From the NCBI RefSeq assembly GCF_014635665.1, contig NZ_BMDG01000007.1, positions 124,001-188,000 of the forward strand: a stretch of 64,000 bases of DNA, given 5' to 3'. Under the pieces are notes generated by a model that made no database searches, was not told the origin of the DNA, and worked only from the letters and a program-made list of their open reading frames with translations. The position numbers were made by a program, and so were the translations under genes. This DNA comes from Isoptericola cucumis. GTDB taxonomy: Bacteria > Actinomycetota > Actinomycetes > Actinomycetales > Cellulomonadaceae. Below are positions 24,890 to 31,424 of the stretch, piece after piece (the stretch's first letter is position 1; the number at the start of each line of letters is the position of its first letter).

Positions 24890-25057
24890 TGGAGCACGCC
24901 AGGCCCCAAGGCCTCGCGAGAAGAACATCGGCGTAGTTCCACGAGTGTCGTCCCTGGTCGGGCCCCCTTCGCGGGCCCGGTCGGCAGGGGCTGGCACAAG
25001 GGGCATCAGCCAGTCGGACGACGCCCCCTCGGGGAGCGGAGAAGGGGAGAGACGGAC

Positions 25058-25300
25058 ATGAGCATCACGGTCTACAGCAAGCCGGCCTGCGTGCAGTGCG
25101 ACGCGACCTACCGCGCCCTGGACCGCAAGGGTGTCGAGTACACCGTCGTGGACATCACCCAGGACGCCGAGGCGCTGGAGATGGTCCGTGGGCTCGGCTA
25201 CCTGCAGGCGCCCGTGGTGGTCGCCGGCGACACCCACTGGTCGGGCTTCCGCCCCGACCAGATCAGCGCCGTCGCGGCGCAGCAGGCCGTCTCGGCCTGA
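25058..25300 (+). CDS. nrdH: NrdH redoxin (class Ib RNR electron donor)
   Basis: 80 residues. Glutaredoxin-like protein with thioredoxin-like activity that reduces NrdE. Redox motif C11-V-Q-C14 ([15 protein letters not shown]) and the C-terminal family motif [10 protein letters not shown] are present. ATG 25058 follows a GGAGAAGGGGAGAG ribosome-binding site. First gene of the operon nrdH-nrdI-nrdE-(homing endonuclease)-nrdF. A 131-base gap with two hairpins separates it from nrdI. Confidence 0.97.
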
Positions 25301-25304
25301 CGTC

Positions 25305-25373
25305 GCGGGGCCCGCGTGCGGGTCCCGCCCAGAGCGGCCGGCGCCCCGGGCTTCGAACCCGACCCGGGGCGCC
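25305..25373 (+). other. Two hairpins in the nrdH-nrdI gap
   Basis: Hairpin 1: GCGGGGCCCGC and GCGGGTCCCGC (about 25305-25328, 10 of 11 pairs). Hairpin 2: perfect 11-bp stem GGCGCCCCGGG (25340-25350) / CCCGGGGCGCC (25363-25373) with a 12-base loop. No U-run. They could let NrdH be made in excess of NrdI, NrdE and NrdF. Confidence 0.5.
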
Positions 25374-25431
25374 GTGCATCTACCCGGCCGGCAGTCCCGG
25401 CCACGCAGCAGTTCCGGGGGAAGGGGGAGCA

Positions 25432-25863
25432 GTGAGTTCTCTCGTCTACTTCTCGAGCGTTTCCGAGAACACCCACCGATTCGTCCAGCGCCTCGGGCTC
25501 GAGGAGCTGGGCATCGGGGTCCACCGCATCCCCGTGCGTCGGACGGACGAGTTCCTGCGCGTCGACGAGCCGTACGTCCTGATGGTGCCCACCTACGGCG
25601 GCGGCAACGAGGGCGGCGCGGTGCCGCGACGAGTGCGCGAGTTCCTCAACGACGCGCACAACCGGTCCTTCATCCGCGGCGTGATCGCCGCGGGAAACAC
25701 CAACTTCGGCGCTGCCTACTGCATCGCCGGCGACATCATCTCCGCGAAGTGCCAGGTGCCGTACCTGTACGCCTTCGAACTCCTGGGGACGGCAGAGGAC
25801 GCCCGCCGCGTCCGTGACGGATTGGGACGATTTTGGCAACGACAGTCACTGATCTCGGCGTGA
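25432..25863 (+). CDS. nrdI: NrdI flavodoxin-like activator of NrdF
   Basis: 143 residues. Flavodoxin-like protein that supplies superoxide to assemble the Mn-tyrosyl radical cofactor of NrdF. The phosphate-binding loop is [10 protein letters not shown] (8-17), and [14 protein letters not shown] and [22 protein letters not shown] are the FMN-binding loops typical of NrdI. GTG 25432 has GGGGGAAGGGGGAG immediately upstream. It overlaps the nrdE start region by 4 or 31 bases depending on the nrdE start chosen. Confidence 0.96.
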
Positions 25864-28028
25864 GCACGACGGACACGACCCCGCCCGCCGGGGCCACCGA
25901 GGTGCCGCTGCAGACCATGCAGCTCGACTACCACGCGCTCAACGCGATGCTCAACCTCTACGGACCGGACGGCAAGATCCAGTTCGAGAAGGACCGCGAG
26001 GCGACGAGCGAGTACTTCCGGCAGCACGTCGAGCCGAACACGATCCACTTCTCCACGCTCGACGAGAAGCTGGACCACCTGGTCGAGAACAAGTACTACG
26101 ACCCGGCCGTGCTGGCCAAGTACTCGCGCGCCTTCGTCAAGGAGCTCTTCCAGACCGCGTACGCGGCGGACTTCCGCTTCGACTCCTTCCTCGGCGCGTT
26201 CAAGTACTACACGTCGTACACGCTCAAGACGTTCGACGGGAAGAAGTACCTCGAGCGCTTCGAGGACCGCGTCTCCATGGTGGCCCTGGGCCTGGCCGAC
26301 GGCGACGAGCAGGTCGCCCGCGACATCGTCGCGGAGATCATCTCCGGCCGGTTCCAGCCCGCGACCCCCACGTTCCTCAACGTCGGCAAGGCGCAGCGCG
26401 GCGAGCCCGTGTCCTGCTTCCTGCTGCGCATCGAGGACAACATGGAGTCGATCGCGCGGAGCATCAACTCCGCGCTGCAGCTGTCCAAGCGCGGTGGCGG
26501 CGTCGCCCTGCTGCTCAGCAACATCCGCGAGCACGGCGCGCCGATCAAGCACATCCAGAACCAGTCGTCCGGCGTCATCCCCGTGATGAAGCTGCTCGAG
26601 GACTCCTTCTCCTACGCGAACCAGCTCGGCGCGCGTCAGGGCGCGGGTGCGGTGTACCTGCACGCGCACCACCCCGACATCATGCGGTTCCTCGACACCA
26701 AGCGTGAGAACGCGGACGAGAAGATCCGCATCAAGACGCTCTCGCTCGGCGTCGTCATCCCGGACATCACGTTCGAGCTGGCGAAGAAGAACGAGGACAT
26801 GCACCTGTTCAGCCCGTACGACGTCGAGCGCGTCTACGGCAAGCCGTTCGCCGACATCTCCATCACGGAGAAGTACGACGAGCTCGTGGCCGACGACCGG
26901 ATCACGAAGACCACGATCTCCGCGCGCGAGTTCTTCCAGACGATCGCCGAGCTGCAGTTCGAGTCCGGCTACCCGTACGTCATGTTCGAGGACACCGTGA
27001 ACCGGGCCAACCCGATCAAGGGCCGGATCACGCACTCCAACCTGTGCTCCGAGATCCTGCAGGTCTCGACGCCGTCGACGTTCAACGAGGACCTGTCCTA
27101 CGACCACGTCGGCCGCGACATCTCCTGCAACCTCGGGTCGCTGAACATCGCCAAGGCGATGGACTCGCCGGACTTCGCCCGCACGATCGACACGTCGATC
27201 CGCGCGCTGACCGCGGTCTCCGACCAGACCAGCATCGAGTCGGTGCCGTCGGTCAAGCGGGCCAACGAGTCGGGGCACGCGATCGGTCTCGGCCAGATGA
27301 ACCTGCACGGCTACCTGGCGCGCGAGCGGATCTACTACGGGTCCGACGAGGGCATCGACTTCACGAACATCTACTTCTACACGGTGGCGTACCACGCGAT
27401 CGCGGCGTCGAACCGCCTGGCGATCGAGCGTGGCCGGGCGTTCGGCGGCTTCGAGGACTCGACGTACGCGAGCGGGGAGTACTTCGACAAGTACACCGAC
27501 GCCGAGTGGAAGCCGGCCACCGAGCGGGTCGCCCGCCTGTTCGCCGACGCCGGGGTGCGCATCCCGACCCAGGACGACTGGCGTGCCCTGAAGGCCTCGG
27601 TCATGGAGCACGGCATCTACAACCAGAACCTGCAGGCCGTGCCGCCGACGGGCTCGATCAGCTACATCAACAACTCGACGTCGTCGATCCACCCGGTGGC
27701 GGCCAAGATCGAGATCCGCAAGGAAGGCAAGATCGGCCGCGTCTACTACCCGGCGCCGTTCATGACGAACGACAACCTGGACTACTACCAGGACGCGTAC
27801 GAGATCGGCTACGAGAAGATCATCGACACCTATGCCGCGGCGACGCAGCACGTCGACCAGGGCCTGTCGCTGACGCTGTTCTTCAAGGACACCGTGACCA
27901 CGCGCGACGTCAACAAGGCGCAGATCTACGCCTGGCGCAAGGGCATCAAGACGCTCTACTACATCCGTCTCCGCCAGCTTGCTCTGGAGGGGACGTCCGT
28001 CGAGGACTGCGTCAGCTGCATGCTGTAG
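25833..28028 (+). CDS. nrdE: Class Ib ribonucleotide reductase large subunit
   Basis: 731 residues. It reduces ribonucleoside diphosphates to deoxyribonucleotides. Active-site cysteines are visible in [16 protein letters not shown] (thiyl position) and ISCNLGSLN, and the C-terminal shuttle pair is C726/C729 (EDCVSCML). It lacks an N-terminal ATP cone, as expected for class Ib. Two starts fit: TTG 25833 with a weak GGGA site, or GTG 25860 overlapping the nrdI stop (GTGA) but with no Shine-Dalgarno; I list the longer one. The gene is uninterrupted by intein or intron, although a homing endonuclease gene begins 3 bases after its stop. Confidence 0.95.
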
Positions 28029-28031
28029 GGA

Positions 28032-28820
28032 GTGACCGTGGTGACCGATGGCTCGAGAAGTCGGAAGCACGTGGGTGTCGTTTACGGCGTACGCCTGCGT
28101 GACTCCGGCGAGTATCGGTACGTGGGGCTGACGACGAGAACTGCAGAGGCTCGGCTCAGGCGGCACCTCAGCAACGCGCGGGCTGGGCGGAAGACTCCGT
28201 TCTATGACTGGCTCCGGAAGCACAAGGATGAAGTTGTCGTCGACCAGCTCGACACTGAGTTGGGAAGTCTGGAGTGGCTCGGCGAGTCCGAGATCATCTG
28301 GATCGGCTCGTTGCGTTCCGAGGGCCATCGACTTCTGAACATCGCGGATGGCGGGCTTGGGCCCACCGGCGTGGTGTGGACGGAGGAGATGCGGGAGGCG
28401 GCACGACGGCGGTCGACCGGGCGGAAAGGCATCAGTCGTCCAGGTGCGCTCCACCCCTTCTACGGAAAGCATCACACCGCTGAGCAGCGTGCGAAGTGGT
28501 CCGAGGAGAGGAAGGGAACCTTCGTCGGGCCGGCCAACCCCAACTACGGCAAGTTCGGTAAGGACCATCCGAGCTTCGGTCACACGATGTCACTAGAGTC
28601 GCGGGCGGCACTCTCCGAGATGCGGAAGGGCGAGCGAAATCCCAACTACGGGAAGAAGGCTAGCCCGGAGACCCGCGCGAAGATGTCCGCCGCGCAGAAG
28701 GGCGTGCCGAAGCCTTCGAGCGCACGGAGCGCGCACACCCGCTACCACACCAATCAAGGACGCGTGAGTCCTCAGTGCACGTTCTGCACTGGAGACGCCC
28801 AATCGCCGGATGGCAGCTAA
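28032..28820 (+). CDS. Free-standing GIY-YIG homing endonuclease with NUMOD3 repeats
   Basis: 262 residues from GTG 28032; GTG 28038 or 28041 are better spaced from GGGAG at 28028-28032. The GIY-YIG domain fills residues 14-110: V17-Y18-G19 and Y30-V31-G32, the R-x-H of RLRRHL (about 44-45), the catalytic Glu in ESEIIWIG (E87) and N103 in LLNIADGGLG. NUMOD3-type DNA-binding modules follow: HPFYGKHHTAEQRAKWSEERKG, NPNYGKFGKDHPSFGH with its helix, and NPNYGKKASPETRAKMSAAQKG. A C-terminal H235-x3-H239 ... C249-x2-C252 looks like the zinc finger of actinophage homing nucleases. It uses many A/T-ending codons (GTT, GAT, TAT, AGA) and a TAA stop, unlike its neighbours. It lies inside nrdHIEF, so it is a mobile gene, probably phage-derived, targeting the nrd locus. 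Not an RNR component. Confidence 0.9.
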   Translation: MTVVTDGSRSRKHVGVVYGVRLRDSGEYRYVGLTTRTAEARLRRHLSNARAGRKTPFYDWLRKHKDEVVVDQLDTELGSLEWLGESEIIWIGSLRSEGHRLLNIADGGLGPTGVVWTEEMREAARRRSTGRKGISRPGALHPFYGKHHTAEQRAKWSEERKGTFVGPANPNYGKFGKDHPSFGHTMSLESRAALSEMRKGERNPNYGKKASPETRAKMSAAQKGVPKPSSARSAHTRYHTNQGRVSPQCTFCTGDAQSPDGS

Positions 28821-29819
<999 letters not shown>

Positions 29820-29848
29820 CCCGGACCTGCGCTCCGTAGCGAGCATGA

Positions 29849-29886
29849 CGAGGCCCGGCACCGCCGTCGTGCGGTGCCGGGCCTCG
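29849..29886. terminator. Bidirectional terminator, nrdF / arabinofuranosidase
   Basis: Perfect 16-bp stem (29849-29864 and 29871-29886; CGAGGCCCGGCACCGC and complement) with a 6-base loop, between two converging genes. Typical strong GC terminator of high-GC actinobacteria; no long U-run. Confidence 0.85.
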
Positions 29887-29912
29887 CGCGTGCGGGACCG
29901 GCCGCGGCGGGT

Positions 29913-31424
29913 TCAGGCGCGGCCGAGGCGGATCATCGACCAGGACACGGGTGGCAGCTCGGCGCGGGCGCGCGCGCCGGCGACCTTGGCCGTGGTGTTG
30001 GCCCGCGGCAGGACGCTCGACTCGTCGTCGGCCGTGGCCGACCACGTGTGGTCGGGGTGGGACAGCGTGCGGGCCTCGACGACGCGGAGGCCGGGGAACC
30101 CGCGCAGGTCGACGTCGAGCACGACGTCGTCGGTCACGGAGCGGTTGGTCGCGAGCAGCACGACCTCGCCGGTCTCCGGGTCGTGGGTCGCGACGGCGTC
30201 GAGCGTCGCGACGTCGCCGAACCGCGCCGTCTCGTGTACCGGGGAGTCGACGGCGAGGCGCAGCACCTCGCCCTTCGCGTACCGGGCGGTGAGGGCGAAG
30301 GGGTGGAACGTCGTCTGGCGCCAGATCCGGCCGCCCGGCTCCGTCATGATCGGCGCGATGACGTTCACGAGCTGCGCGAGCGACGCGGCGTGCACCCGGT
30401 CGGTGTGCCGCAGGAGGCTGATGAGCATCGACCCGACCACGACGGCGTCGGCGACGTTGTACCGGTCCTCGAGCAGCACGGGAGCCACCGGCCAGTCGTC
30501 GCCGCTCGGTGGCCGGGACTCCGCGCGGTGCTGGTACCAGACGTTCCACTCGTCGAACGAGATGTTGATGCGCTTGGTGTGCTTGCCCGCCGCGCGCACC
30601 GCGTCGGCGGTCGCGGTCACGGCCTCGATGAAGTGGTCCATGTCGACGGTGGACGCGAGGAACGAGGCGAGGTCGCCGTCGGTCTCCCAGTAGTACGCGT
30701 GCGCGGAGACGTGGTCGACGTGCTCGTACGCCTCGGAGAGCACCACGTGCTCCCACTCGCCGAACGTCGGCATGGCCGACCCGGAGGAGCCGCAGACCAC
30801 CAGCTCCAGGTCCGGGTCGACCATCCGCATGGCGCGCGCGGTCTCGGCGGCCAGGCGTCCGTACTCGCCCGCCCTCTTGTGCCCGACCTGCCACGGCCCG
30901 TCCATCTCGTTGCCGAGGCACCACATCGAGATGCGGTACGGGTCGGCGGTGCCGTTCTCCCGCCGCCGGTCGGACCACCGGGTGCCGCCCGCCACGTTGC
31001 AGTACTCCAGCAGGTCCAGGGCCTCCTGCACCCCGCGGGTGCCGAGGTTGACCGCCATCATCGGCTCGACGCCTGCCCTGGCGCACCAGCGCATAAACTC
31101 GTCCACGCCGACGAGGTTCGGCTCGGTCGAGTGCCACGCCAGGTCCAGGCGCCGAGGTCGCTGGGCGACCGGGCCGATCCCGTCCTCCCACCGGTACCCG
31201 GACACGAAGTTGCCTCCCGGGTAGCGGACCGTGGACACCCCCAGCTCCCGCACCAGCTCGATCACGTCGCCGCGGAACCCGTCCGCGTCGGCGCTGGGGT
31301 GCTGCGGGTCGTGAATCCCGGTGTACACGGACCGGCCGAGGTGCTCGACGAACGAGCCGAACGTGCGACGGCGCACGGGCCCGACGACGAACGCCGGATC
31401 GGCGGTGACGGTGGCAGACAGCAT
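29913..31424 (-). CDS. abfA: GH51 alpha-L-arabinofuranosidase
   Basis: 503 residues, intracellular (no signal peptide). The N-terminal RRRTFGSFVEHLGRSVYTGIHDP and RYPGGNFVSGYRWEDGIGP are GH51 hallmarks. Acid/base E173 is in CLGNEMDGPW and nucleophile E292 in ISFDEWNVWY. It removes alpha-L-arabinofuranosyl residues from imported arabino- or arabinoxylo-oligosaccharides. Last gene of the importer operon, 62 bases after the binding-protein gene; ATG 31424 has AGGAGC upstream. Length is standard for the bacterial family. Confidence 0.96.
   Translation of the reverse strand: MLSATVTADPAFVVGPVRRRTFGSFVEHLGRSVYTGIHDPQHPSADADGFRGDVIELVRELGVSTVRYPGGNFVSGYRWEDGIGPVAQRPRRLDLAWHSTEPNLVGVDEFMRWCARAGVEPMMAVNLGTRGVQEALDLLEYCNVAGGTRWSDRRRENGTADPYRISMWCLGNEMDGPWQVGHKRAGEYGRLAAETARAMRMVDPDLELVVCGSSGSAMPTFGEWEHVVLSEAYEHVDHVSAHAYYWETDGDLASFLASTVDMDHFIEAVTATADAVRAAGKHTKRINISFDEWNVWYQHRAESRPPSGDDWPVAPVLLEDRYNVADAVVVGSMLISLLRHTDRVHAASLAQLVNVIAPIMTEPGGRIWRQTTFHPFALTARYAKGEVLRLAVDSPVHETARFGDVATLDAVATHDPETGEVVLLATNRSVTDDVVLDVDLRGFPGLRVVEARTLSHPDHTWSATADDESSVLPRANTTAKVAGARARAELPPVSWSMIRLGRA

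Follow-up and report, generated by a model that had tools for sequence, protein, structure and literature searches.

A free-standing GIY-YIG homing endonuclease dedicated to the 3′ end of nrdE, which spreads between actinobacterial chromosomes and phages through intronless homing, is in our judgement the best explanation (probability roughly 0.86) for a gene lodged in the class Ib ribonucleotide reductase (RNR) operon of the DNA analyzed here, a 64,000-nucleotide stretch from Isoptericola cucumis referred to as the window. Most of what is known about free-standing homing endonucleases comes from phages. Given about four dozen chromosomal copies at one site in an essential gene, intronless homing in bacterial chromosomes becomes measurable and testable: occupied and empty alleles can be paired on near-identical backgrounds, the replacement of flanking DNA is sharply bounded, and changes in the C-terminal tail of NrdE are tied to a selfish element.

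The operon lies on the forward strand. Its first gene, nrdH (25058–25300), encodes a glutaredoxin-like protein (Pfam Glutaredoxin, E = 1.6e-14), followed by the nrdI region (25386–25862; frame chosen by hand, start approximate), a stretch with homologs 5′ of nrdE in many related loci. As the earlier note had stated, nrdE and nrdF are both full length by NCBIfam class Ib models: the uninterrupted alpha-subunit gene nrdE spans 25833–28028 (TIGR04170, 1246 bits over 698 of 698 positions; its true start may be later) and the uninterrupted beta-subunit gene nrdF spans 28839–29819 (NF010573, 662 bits over 323 positions). The intervening open reading frame, 28032–28820 at its longest, likewise sits where that note placed it, 3 nt past the nrdE stop codon (28026–28028) and 18 nt short of the nrdF ATG at 28839. 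A GTG at 28038, 9 nt past nrdE, is probably the likelier start, because an AGGGAG overlapping the nrdE stop is well spaced from it and the congeneric locus L002 has an ATG at the equivalent place; the nuclease gene would then span 28038–28820. Since nrdE and nrdF are unbroken and Rfam detects no group I intron in 25000–30000, the nuclease is a gene of its own, outside any intron or intein. A sub-threshold Rfam match to Pxr at the end of nrdF (29803–29893, forward strand; 23.8 bits against a cut-off of 80) is probably due to chance. The gene had also been described as lower in GC, which holds for third codon positions only: GC3 is 0.773 versus 0.977 in nrdE and 0.991 in nrdF, and falls below that of nrdE in 41 of 41 loci, whereas overall GC is 0.641 versus 0.648 and 0.641, respectively.

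The encoded protein combines a GIY-YIG catalytic domain (residues 15–104 counted from 28032; 28074–28343), putative DNA-binding NUMOD3 repeats (approximately residues 139–219; 28446–28688, the outer limit set by eye) and a zinc-finger-like C-terminal end (residues 235–252; 28734–28787), all on the forward strand. NUMOD3 is matched in three stretches (Pfam, E = 5.5e-19), the best covering residues 183–219, and a genome search finds NUMOD3 at this single place. The Pfam GIY-YIG match reaches 21.1 bits, slightly below the cut-off of 22.6, and the NCBIfam group I intron endonuclease model TIGR01453 scores 48.6 bits, short of its curated cut-off of 56.05. Residues Y18, Y30, R41, H45, E87, and N103 are invariant in all 19 aligned sequences, the window included, as is the terminal H235-x3-H239-x9-C249-x2-C252 arrangement. 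We presume that the tyrosine, arginine, histidine, glutamate, and asparagine positions play the catalytic roles of their I-TevI counterparts. The claim that the nuclease center is intact thus stands for Y18, Y30, H45, E87, and N103, while the catalytic arginine, previously put at position 44, is most likely R41, which we take from the R-x3-H spacing of I-TevI. An AlphaFold model built from 21 aligned sequences (pLDDT of about 87–96 for residues 11–100, falling to low values past about residue 100) resembles the catalytic domain of I-TevI (PDBID 1mk0; Foldseek E = 5.8e-4, TM 0.74 by target length), and this predicted fold is that of the GIY-YIG endonuclease superfamily. A profile search of the PDB gives weak matches, with a thermonuclease first (E = 0.16) followed by I-TevI (PDBID 1i3j, E = 0.17).

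Copies of the gene share a single location. When 84,980 species genomes were scanned by pattern, a method whose reach is limited to close relatives, 22 relatives emerged, in Promicromonospora, Sanguibacter, Cellulomonas, Gordonia, Arthrobacter/Pseudarthrobacter, Mycolicibacterium, Glutamicibacter, and Nocardia. All 22 begin 7–40 nt past the nrdE stop codon (starts chosen by script) and 20 also precede nrdF; the Mycolicibacterium (L031) and Nocardia (L037) copies have no nrdF in the stretch examined. Profile searches that scored 6 to 12 candidates per genome identify 12 carriers among 396 genomes of the order, 5 among 394 of the class (a sample overlapping that of the order) and 6 among 201 of one Mycobacteriales family, and each of these copies adjoins nrdE, even L100 at 47% identity. 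With strains counted once by handle, the bacterial copies recovered with a nuclease query lie directly 3′ of nrdE in 39 of 39 cases; L302 is identical to L025 over the matched protein and perhaps from the same strain. Nine more copies (L119, L126, L168, L206, L237, L251, L254, L265, and L296) came from nrdE searches and thus provide no test of site fidelity. In IMG/VR, the contigs that match over more than 230 residues at 45% identity or better, five in all (L041 and L318–L321), read nrdE-nuclease-nrdF, and many other loci give weak or partial matches, mostly to the NUMOD3 part. L041, whose copy is 88% identical, reads like a host contig with frameshifts in several genes, for which it was excluded from the statistics. 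The target had been proposed to lie in nrdE or nrdF. Because the bacterial copies follow nrdE, also in the four loci (L031, L037, L296, and L101) where no adjacent nrdF was found, the site belongs to the 3′ end of nrdE and not to nrdF.

Presence at this site is patchy. Rather than being carried by nearly all relatives, the gene occupies 2 of the 16 junctions that could be read within the genus of the window, the window included (18 genomes searched, two incomplete and without an nrdF match), and is found in the 12 of 396 genomes of the order mentioned above. Carriers make up 6 of 60 loci in the Arthrobacter group (g24; 60 of 63 places in 61 genomes, the carrier G184 itself not among them), 5 of 58 in g41, which includes Cellulomonas uda and C. 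chitinilytica (58 of 58 places), and 6 of 52 in g39 (52 of 59 places in 58 genomes). Three genomes (G825, G828, and G897) contain a second nrdE-like match of 74–75% identity. Alignment with relatives, the check proposed with the original reading, recovers occupied and empty alleles of the one site in bacterial loci and also in phages. A host tree computed from nrdE and nrdF minus the 60 nt nearest the junction on each side (L031, L037, L101, and L242 excluded, nrdF being not adjacent or not complete) requires 33 presence/absence changes; it holds 205 loci, of which 39 are carriers. Within the genus of the window, the two carriers are not neighbors: they differ from one another by 9.6% and from their nearest non-carriers by 7.6% and 2.7%, the larger value being that of the window copy, which has no very close non-carrier.

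Insertion is accompanied by replacement of the flanking DNA. Each locus was compared with its nearest same-genus non-carrier, chosen on nrdE nt −390 to −91, for 31 carriers of four genera having non-carriers and for 167 non-carriers. Divergence in the last 36 nt of nrdE exceeds upstream divergence by 0.225 in carriers (n = 31) versus 0.122 in non-carriers (n = 167; p=1.9e-7), so the clustering of polymorphism near the junction that the earlier note had proposed to look for is present; at nrdE nt −90 to −54, which were unused in choosing neighbors, the values are 0.021 for carriers and 0.028 for non-carriers (p=0.89). An earlier version of the test with a 72-nt tail, based on the last 130 codons of 209 loci (42 carriers, 167 non-carriers), gave p=5e-6. 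By genus, the excess in the nrdE tail is seen in g24 (p=2e-5) and g41 (p=1e-4). The two carriers of the window's own genus give p=0.12 for the nrdE tail and p=0.24 for the nrdF side, and genus g39, where the tail is variable anyway, shows no footprint on either side (nrdE p=0.32, nrdF p=0.70). Arthrobacter carriers also exhibit excess divergence in the first 45 nt of nrdF (p=1.2e-8), an nrdF-side footprint absent from g41 (p=0.59), and 45 of 54 Arthrobacter non-carriers have a GC-rich hairpin in the spacer, versus 0 of 16 carriers. Single pairs illustrate the pattern: L036 and L154 differ at 1 position in 300 nt upstream and at 9 in the last 39 nt of nrdE, comparable pairs exist for L024, L027, L029, L095, and L168, and the difference is smaller in L119 and L251. 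The co-conversion of flanks characteristic of a free-standing homing endonuclease is therefore observed, except in genus g39.

Recombination across an operon junction would likewise swap short flanks, and nuclease activity is itself deduced, so the gene could conceivably be a passenger, moved with the whole junction by ordinary homologous recombination in which the nuclease plays no part. We regard this as very unlikely, as the replaced stretches are short and located at the insert and the protein is maintained. Over the matched length, 44 of 49 copies are intact (L303 was scored intact despite one TGA in its profile match); the broken copies are L091, which has a stop codon, and L101, L305, and L306, which are truncated or frameshifted, with L041 counted as unreliable. 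In Arthrobacter pairs nuclease protein identity lies well above third-position identity (e.g., 0.90–0.92 versus 0.60–0.72), indicating that the nuclease protein is under selection.

The last 12 codons and stop codon of the window's nrdE (27990–28028, forward strand) correspond to the segment that changes together with the nuclease gene and would fall within the homing site or beside it. Among 16 Arthrobacter carriers, tail distance tracks nuclease distance after control for the backbone (partial Mantel r=0.49, p=0.0002); a control stretch at nrdE nt −129 to −54 does not track the nuclease (r=0.004), nor does the start of nrdF (p=0.24). For the six carriers of g41 this linkage is borderline (p=0.07), and the control stretch shows a correlation there too (p=0.04); the seven of g39 show no linkage (p=0.36). 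The motif GAAAA[CT]TG, which comprises the codons right before the first C-terminal cysteine, is shared by 20 of 48 carriers, versus 3 of 195 non-carriers (L106, L277, and L283). Corrected for relatedness by independent pairs, 8.8 of 24 change in the same direction and 0 in the opposite direction (median p=0.004); including a Ser-codon motif chosen post hoc from the same data gives 11.8 and 0 (p=0.0005).

Two amino acid positions also differ between carriers and non-carriers. Asparagine at position −8 is found in 29 of 48 carriers versus 16 of 195 non-carriers (Fisher 5.6e-14, uncorrected for relatedness), with 5 of 6 versus 0 of 53 in g41 and 10 of 16 versus 5 of 54 in g24; the window's own genus shows the reverse, 0 of 2 carriers versus 8 of 14 non-carriers. 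Serine at −11 occurs in 4 of 48 carriers versus 0 of 195 non-carriers (uncorrected for relatedness), and in the window this codon is TCC (27996–27998), a position at which none of 195 non-carriers has Ser or Thr. The carriers with Ser are the window, L002, L019, and L036, and the IMG/VR contigs L318, L319, L320, and L321 have Thr or Ser at the same codon. Two Mycobacteriales non-carriers, L277 and L283 (of the genus of G606), possess the GAAAATTG tail, so the tail is no proof of a present nuclease. L106, a non-carrier with the same carrier-type tail and a different insert, may once have held the nuclease.

In a reduced set of 24 carriers and 113 non-carriers (Arthrobacter left out, 11 duplicates removed, and 72 of 209 loci set aside for failing an ungapped check because of an indel), a single recent donor tail common to the different genera was sought and not found. 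Between genera, the carriers of this set are more diverse at codons −20 to −11, with a third-position identity of 0.41 versus 0.61 for non-carriers. With tails that differ between groups, target immunity could act as a second force, whereby the altered tail would be a recoding selected against the carrier's own nuclease and not, or not only, a donor tract. We consider this possible, if doubtful. The changes do differ among carriers, as the counts at −8 and −11 and the diversity between genera illustrate, and L036 has the Ser tail while its nuclease groups with Cellulomonas copies. In Arthrobacter, however, the tail follows the nuclease lineage, and synonymous sites and the nrdF start change with it, all of which hitch-hiking on a converted tract explains directly. 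Target immunity and donor-tract co-conversion can act together. A tentative extension of the homing reading is that of a chromosomal gene drive, in which the nuclease and a resistant NrdE C-terminus, altered at residues that adjoin the conserved cysteines, would spread as one haplotype across bacterial genera and phages and would have repeatedly rewritten the sequence of RNR, an essential enzyme.

The descent of the nuclease includes both inheritance and movement. The nearest relatives found for the window copy are chromosomal, at 77% identity in a congener and 67% in Promicromonospora; the 88% copy is that of L041, the IMG/VR contig that reads like host DNA. The nuclease tree is largely grouped by host genus, with two exceptions: Mycobacteriales copies nest with those of the Micrococcaceae, and L098, from another family, pairs with a Cellulomonas-group (g41) copy. 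Within Arthrobacter, nuclease and backbone distances correlate (r=0.74). The grouping by genus and the correlated distances indicate that part of this history is vertical. At third positions, 1 of 741 pairs has a nuclease similarity that exceeds that of nrdF by more than 0.05, which lends no support to transfer; we read this test as uninformative because of the extreme codon bias of nrdE and nrdF (GC3 of approximately 0.95–0.99).

These same three observations would suit a gene that was already part of the nrd operon in ancestral actinobacteria, immobile, vertically inherited, and lost many times. We nonetheless judge that scenario highly improbable. Were an ancestral gene cleanly deleted, the carrier tail would stay in place, yet GAAAA[CT]TG is concentrated in carriers as described above, so that most state changes are better read as gains. 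The 33 changes among 39 carriers, the spacer hairpin of most Arthrobacter non-carriers that carriers lack, and the two exceptions in the nuclease tree also count against it. We read the whole as inheritance and homing within genera, with rare movement from one order to another.

The site is likewise occupied in phages. Among those that are annotated, Arthrobacter phage Talia1610 gives the best match (34% identity), and its gene order is nrdH-nrdI-nrdE-nuclease-nrdF with the nuclease directly after nrdE; the protein is already annotated as a GIY-YIG endonuclease and shares the H-x3-H-x9-C-x2-C end. The related phages Mimi, Racecar, and Atuin lack the nuclease gene, the first two being near-identical to Talia1610. 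Across 1260 nt of nrdE, Talia1610 diverges from Mimi by 0.4%, and then 27 of the final 120 nt are changed; it lacks the 90-nt spacer, and its nrdF diverges by 7% from that of Mimi and by 8% from that of Racecar. Atuin (L316) was left out of the nrdE comparison as its upstream region is out of register. The difference between Talia1610 and Mimi is a footprint like that of the chromosomal carriers, although the tract is longer. Two viral contigs, L320 and L321, have neighboring genes with PHROG matches and a GC content near 0.46. By annotation, none of the matches in Gordonia phage GMA2, Acinetobacter phage PhT2, and RB16 lies directly after an RNR large-subunit gene. In the IMG/VR locus L356 (2142–4420), a stretch 27% identical to an RNR large subunit is followed within 300 nt by a NUMOD3-type match, possibly another RNR-linked nuclease.

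Since phages harbor the element at the same site, they may serve as its vehicle. A recent phage-to-host transfer, as the earlier note had suggested, is unsupported for the window copy: its nearest relatives are the chromosomal copies at 77% and 67%, the annotated phage homolog reaches 34%, and in a tree calculated without ten Arthrobacter copies and accompanied by long-branch warnings, the copies from phages and the other viral contigs sit on long or poorly placed branches and are not its sisters. What survives of that homing-type reading is a free-standing gene with the nrdA-mobE-nrdB logic of phage T4, patchy in occurrence and bound to the 3′ end of nrdE, without the recent phage origin.

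The nrdE-nrdF junction also receives other insertions. Nine non-carriers have long spacers (L008, L105, L106, L125, L164, L185, L190, L220, and L249), in which nuclease remnants were sought; the best match, E = 0.009 over 23 residues, is unconvincing. Six of these spacers (487–641 nt in L105, L106, L125, L220, and L190, and 301 nt in L185) hold a different insert with tiny open reading frames and a spacer GC of 0.54–0.59. The tiny frames of the first five show by eye a repeated R-S/D-A-x-T-G-x-F/Y-V-like pattern; Rfam gives no match at the six loci, nor do Pfam and NCBIfam for three of the small peptides. The junction may be a hotspot for small elements.

A mechanism for the family can be proposed by analogy with the free-standing endonucleases of T4. 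The nuclease would bind nrdE alleles without the gene and cleave them within or close to the final 36 nt or so of the frame, where the target codons encode the conserved C-terminal C-V-S-C of NrdE. With carrier DNA in the same cell, repair would copy the nuclease gene with its immediate flanks, and the recipient would acquire a new junction of nrdE tail and nuclease gene, together with the nrdF start in Arthrobacter, at the expense of its native spacer. The gene sits in the nrd operon between short or overlapping junctions, and it is gained in a patchy manner, constrained at the protein level, and occasionally broken. Actinophages, which have the element at the same site, could ferry it from cell to cell. 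Domestication, with the nuclease acting against nrdE brought in by infecting phages (interference) or controlling the nrd operon, is unlikely. Actinophages do carry nrdE with a like C-terminal motif, and I-TevI is described as a repressor as well (PMC10448857); patchy, site-bound spread with flank replacement needs no host benefit, and broken copies exist.

We found no description of the nrdE-linked nuclease family in the open-access titles and abstract openings searched, a scope outside which most subscription journals lie. The closest parallel in position is mobE of phage T4, likewise a free-standing nuclease gene between the genes for the large and small RNR subunits; according to the account in PMC2988022, it lies between nrdA and nrdB, its start overlaps the nrdA stop, and it is expressed with the operon. 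Phage-borne mobE encodes an HNH endonuclease in a class Ia RNR operon, with nrdB as its listed target. Unlike mobE, the nrdE-linked family is mostly chromosomal, resides in class Ib operons, and is tied to the 3′ end of nrdE, and in place of the HNH domain of the mobE family it has GIY-YIG. The same source reports homing with co-conversion for T4 free-standing endonucleases, among which the Seg endonucleases resemble the present family as free-standing GIY-YIG enzymes with intronless homing and differ in being T4 genes with other target genes (PMC2988022). I-TevI, from the T4 td intron (PDBIDs 1mk0 and 1ln0), appears alike in its modeled catalytic fold, catalytic residues, and a binding region after the catalytic domain; it is intron-encoded, whereas the nrdE-linked family has no intron and bears the C-terminal H-x3-H-x9-C-x2-C end. 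Group I introns and inteins with endonucleases are reported in nrdE and nrdF of Bacillus, cyanobacteria, and phages (PMC3984707, PMC3653736), and the 2014 review among these describes little evidence for interspecies movement of bacterial introns (PMC3984707). Those elements, as reported there, share the same targets but reside inside the gene and depend on splicing (PMC3984707, PMC3653736), whereas here nrdE and nrdF remain unbroken and the nuclease gene stands on its own between them.
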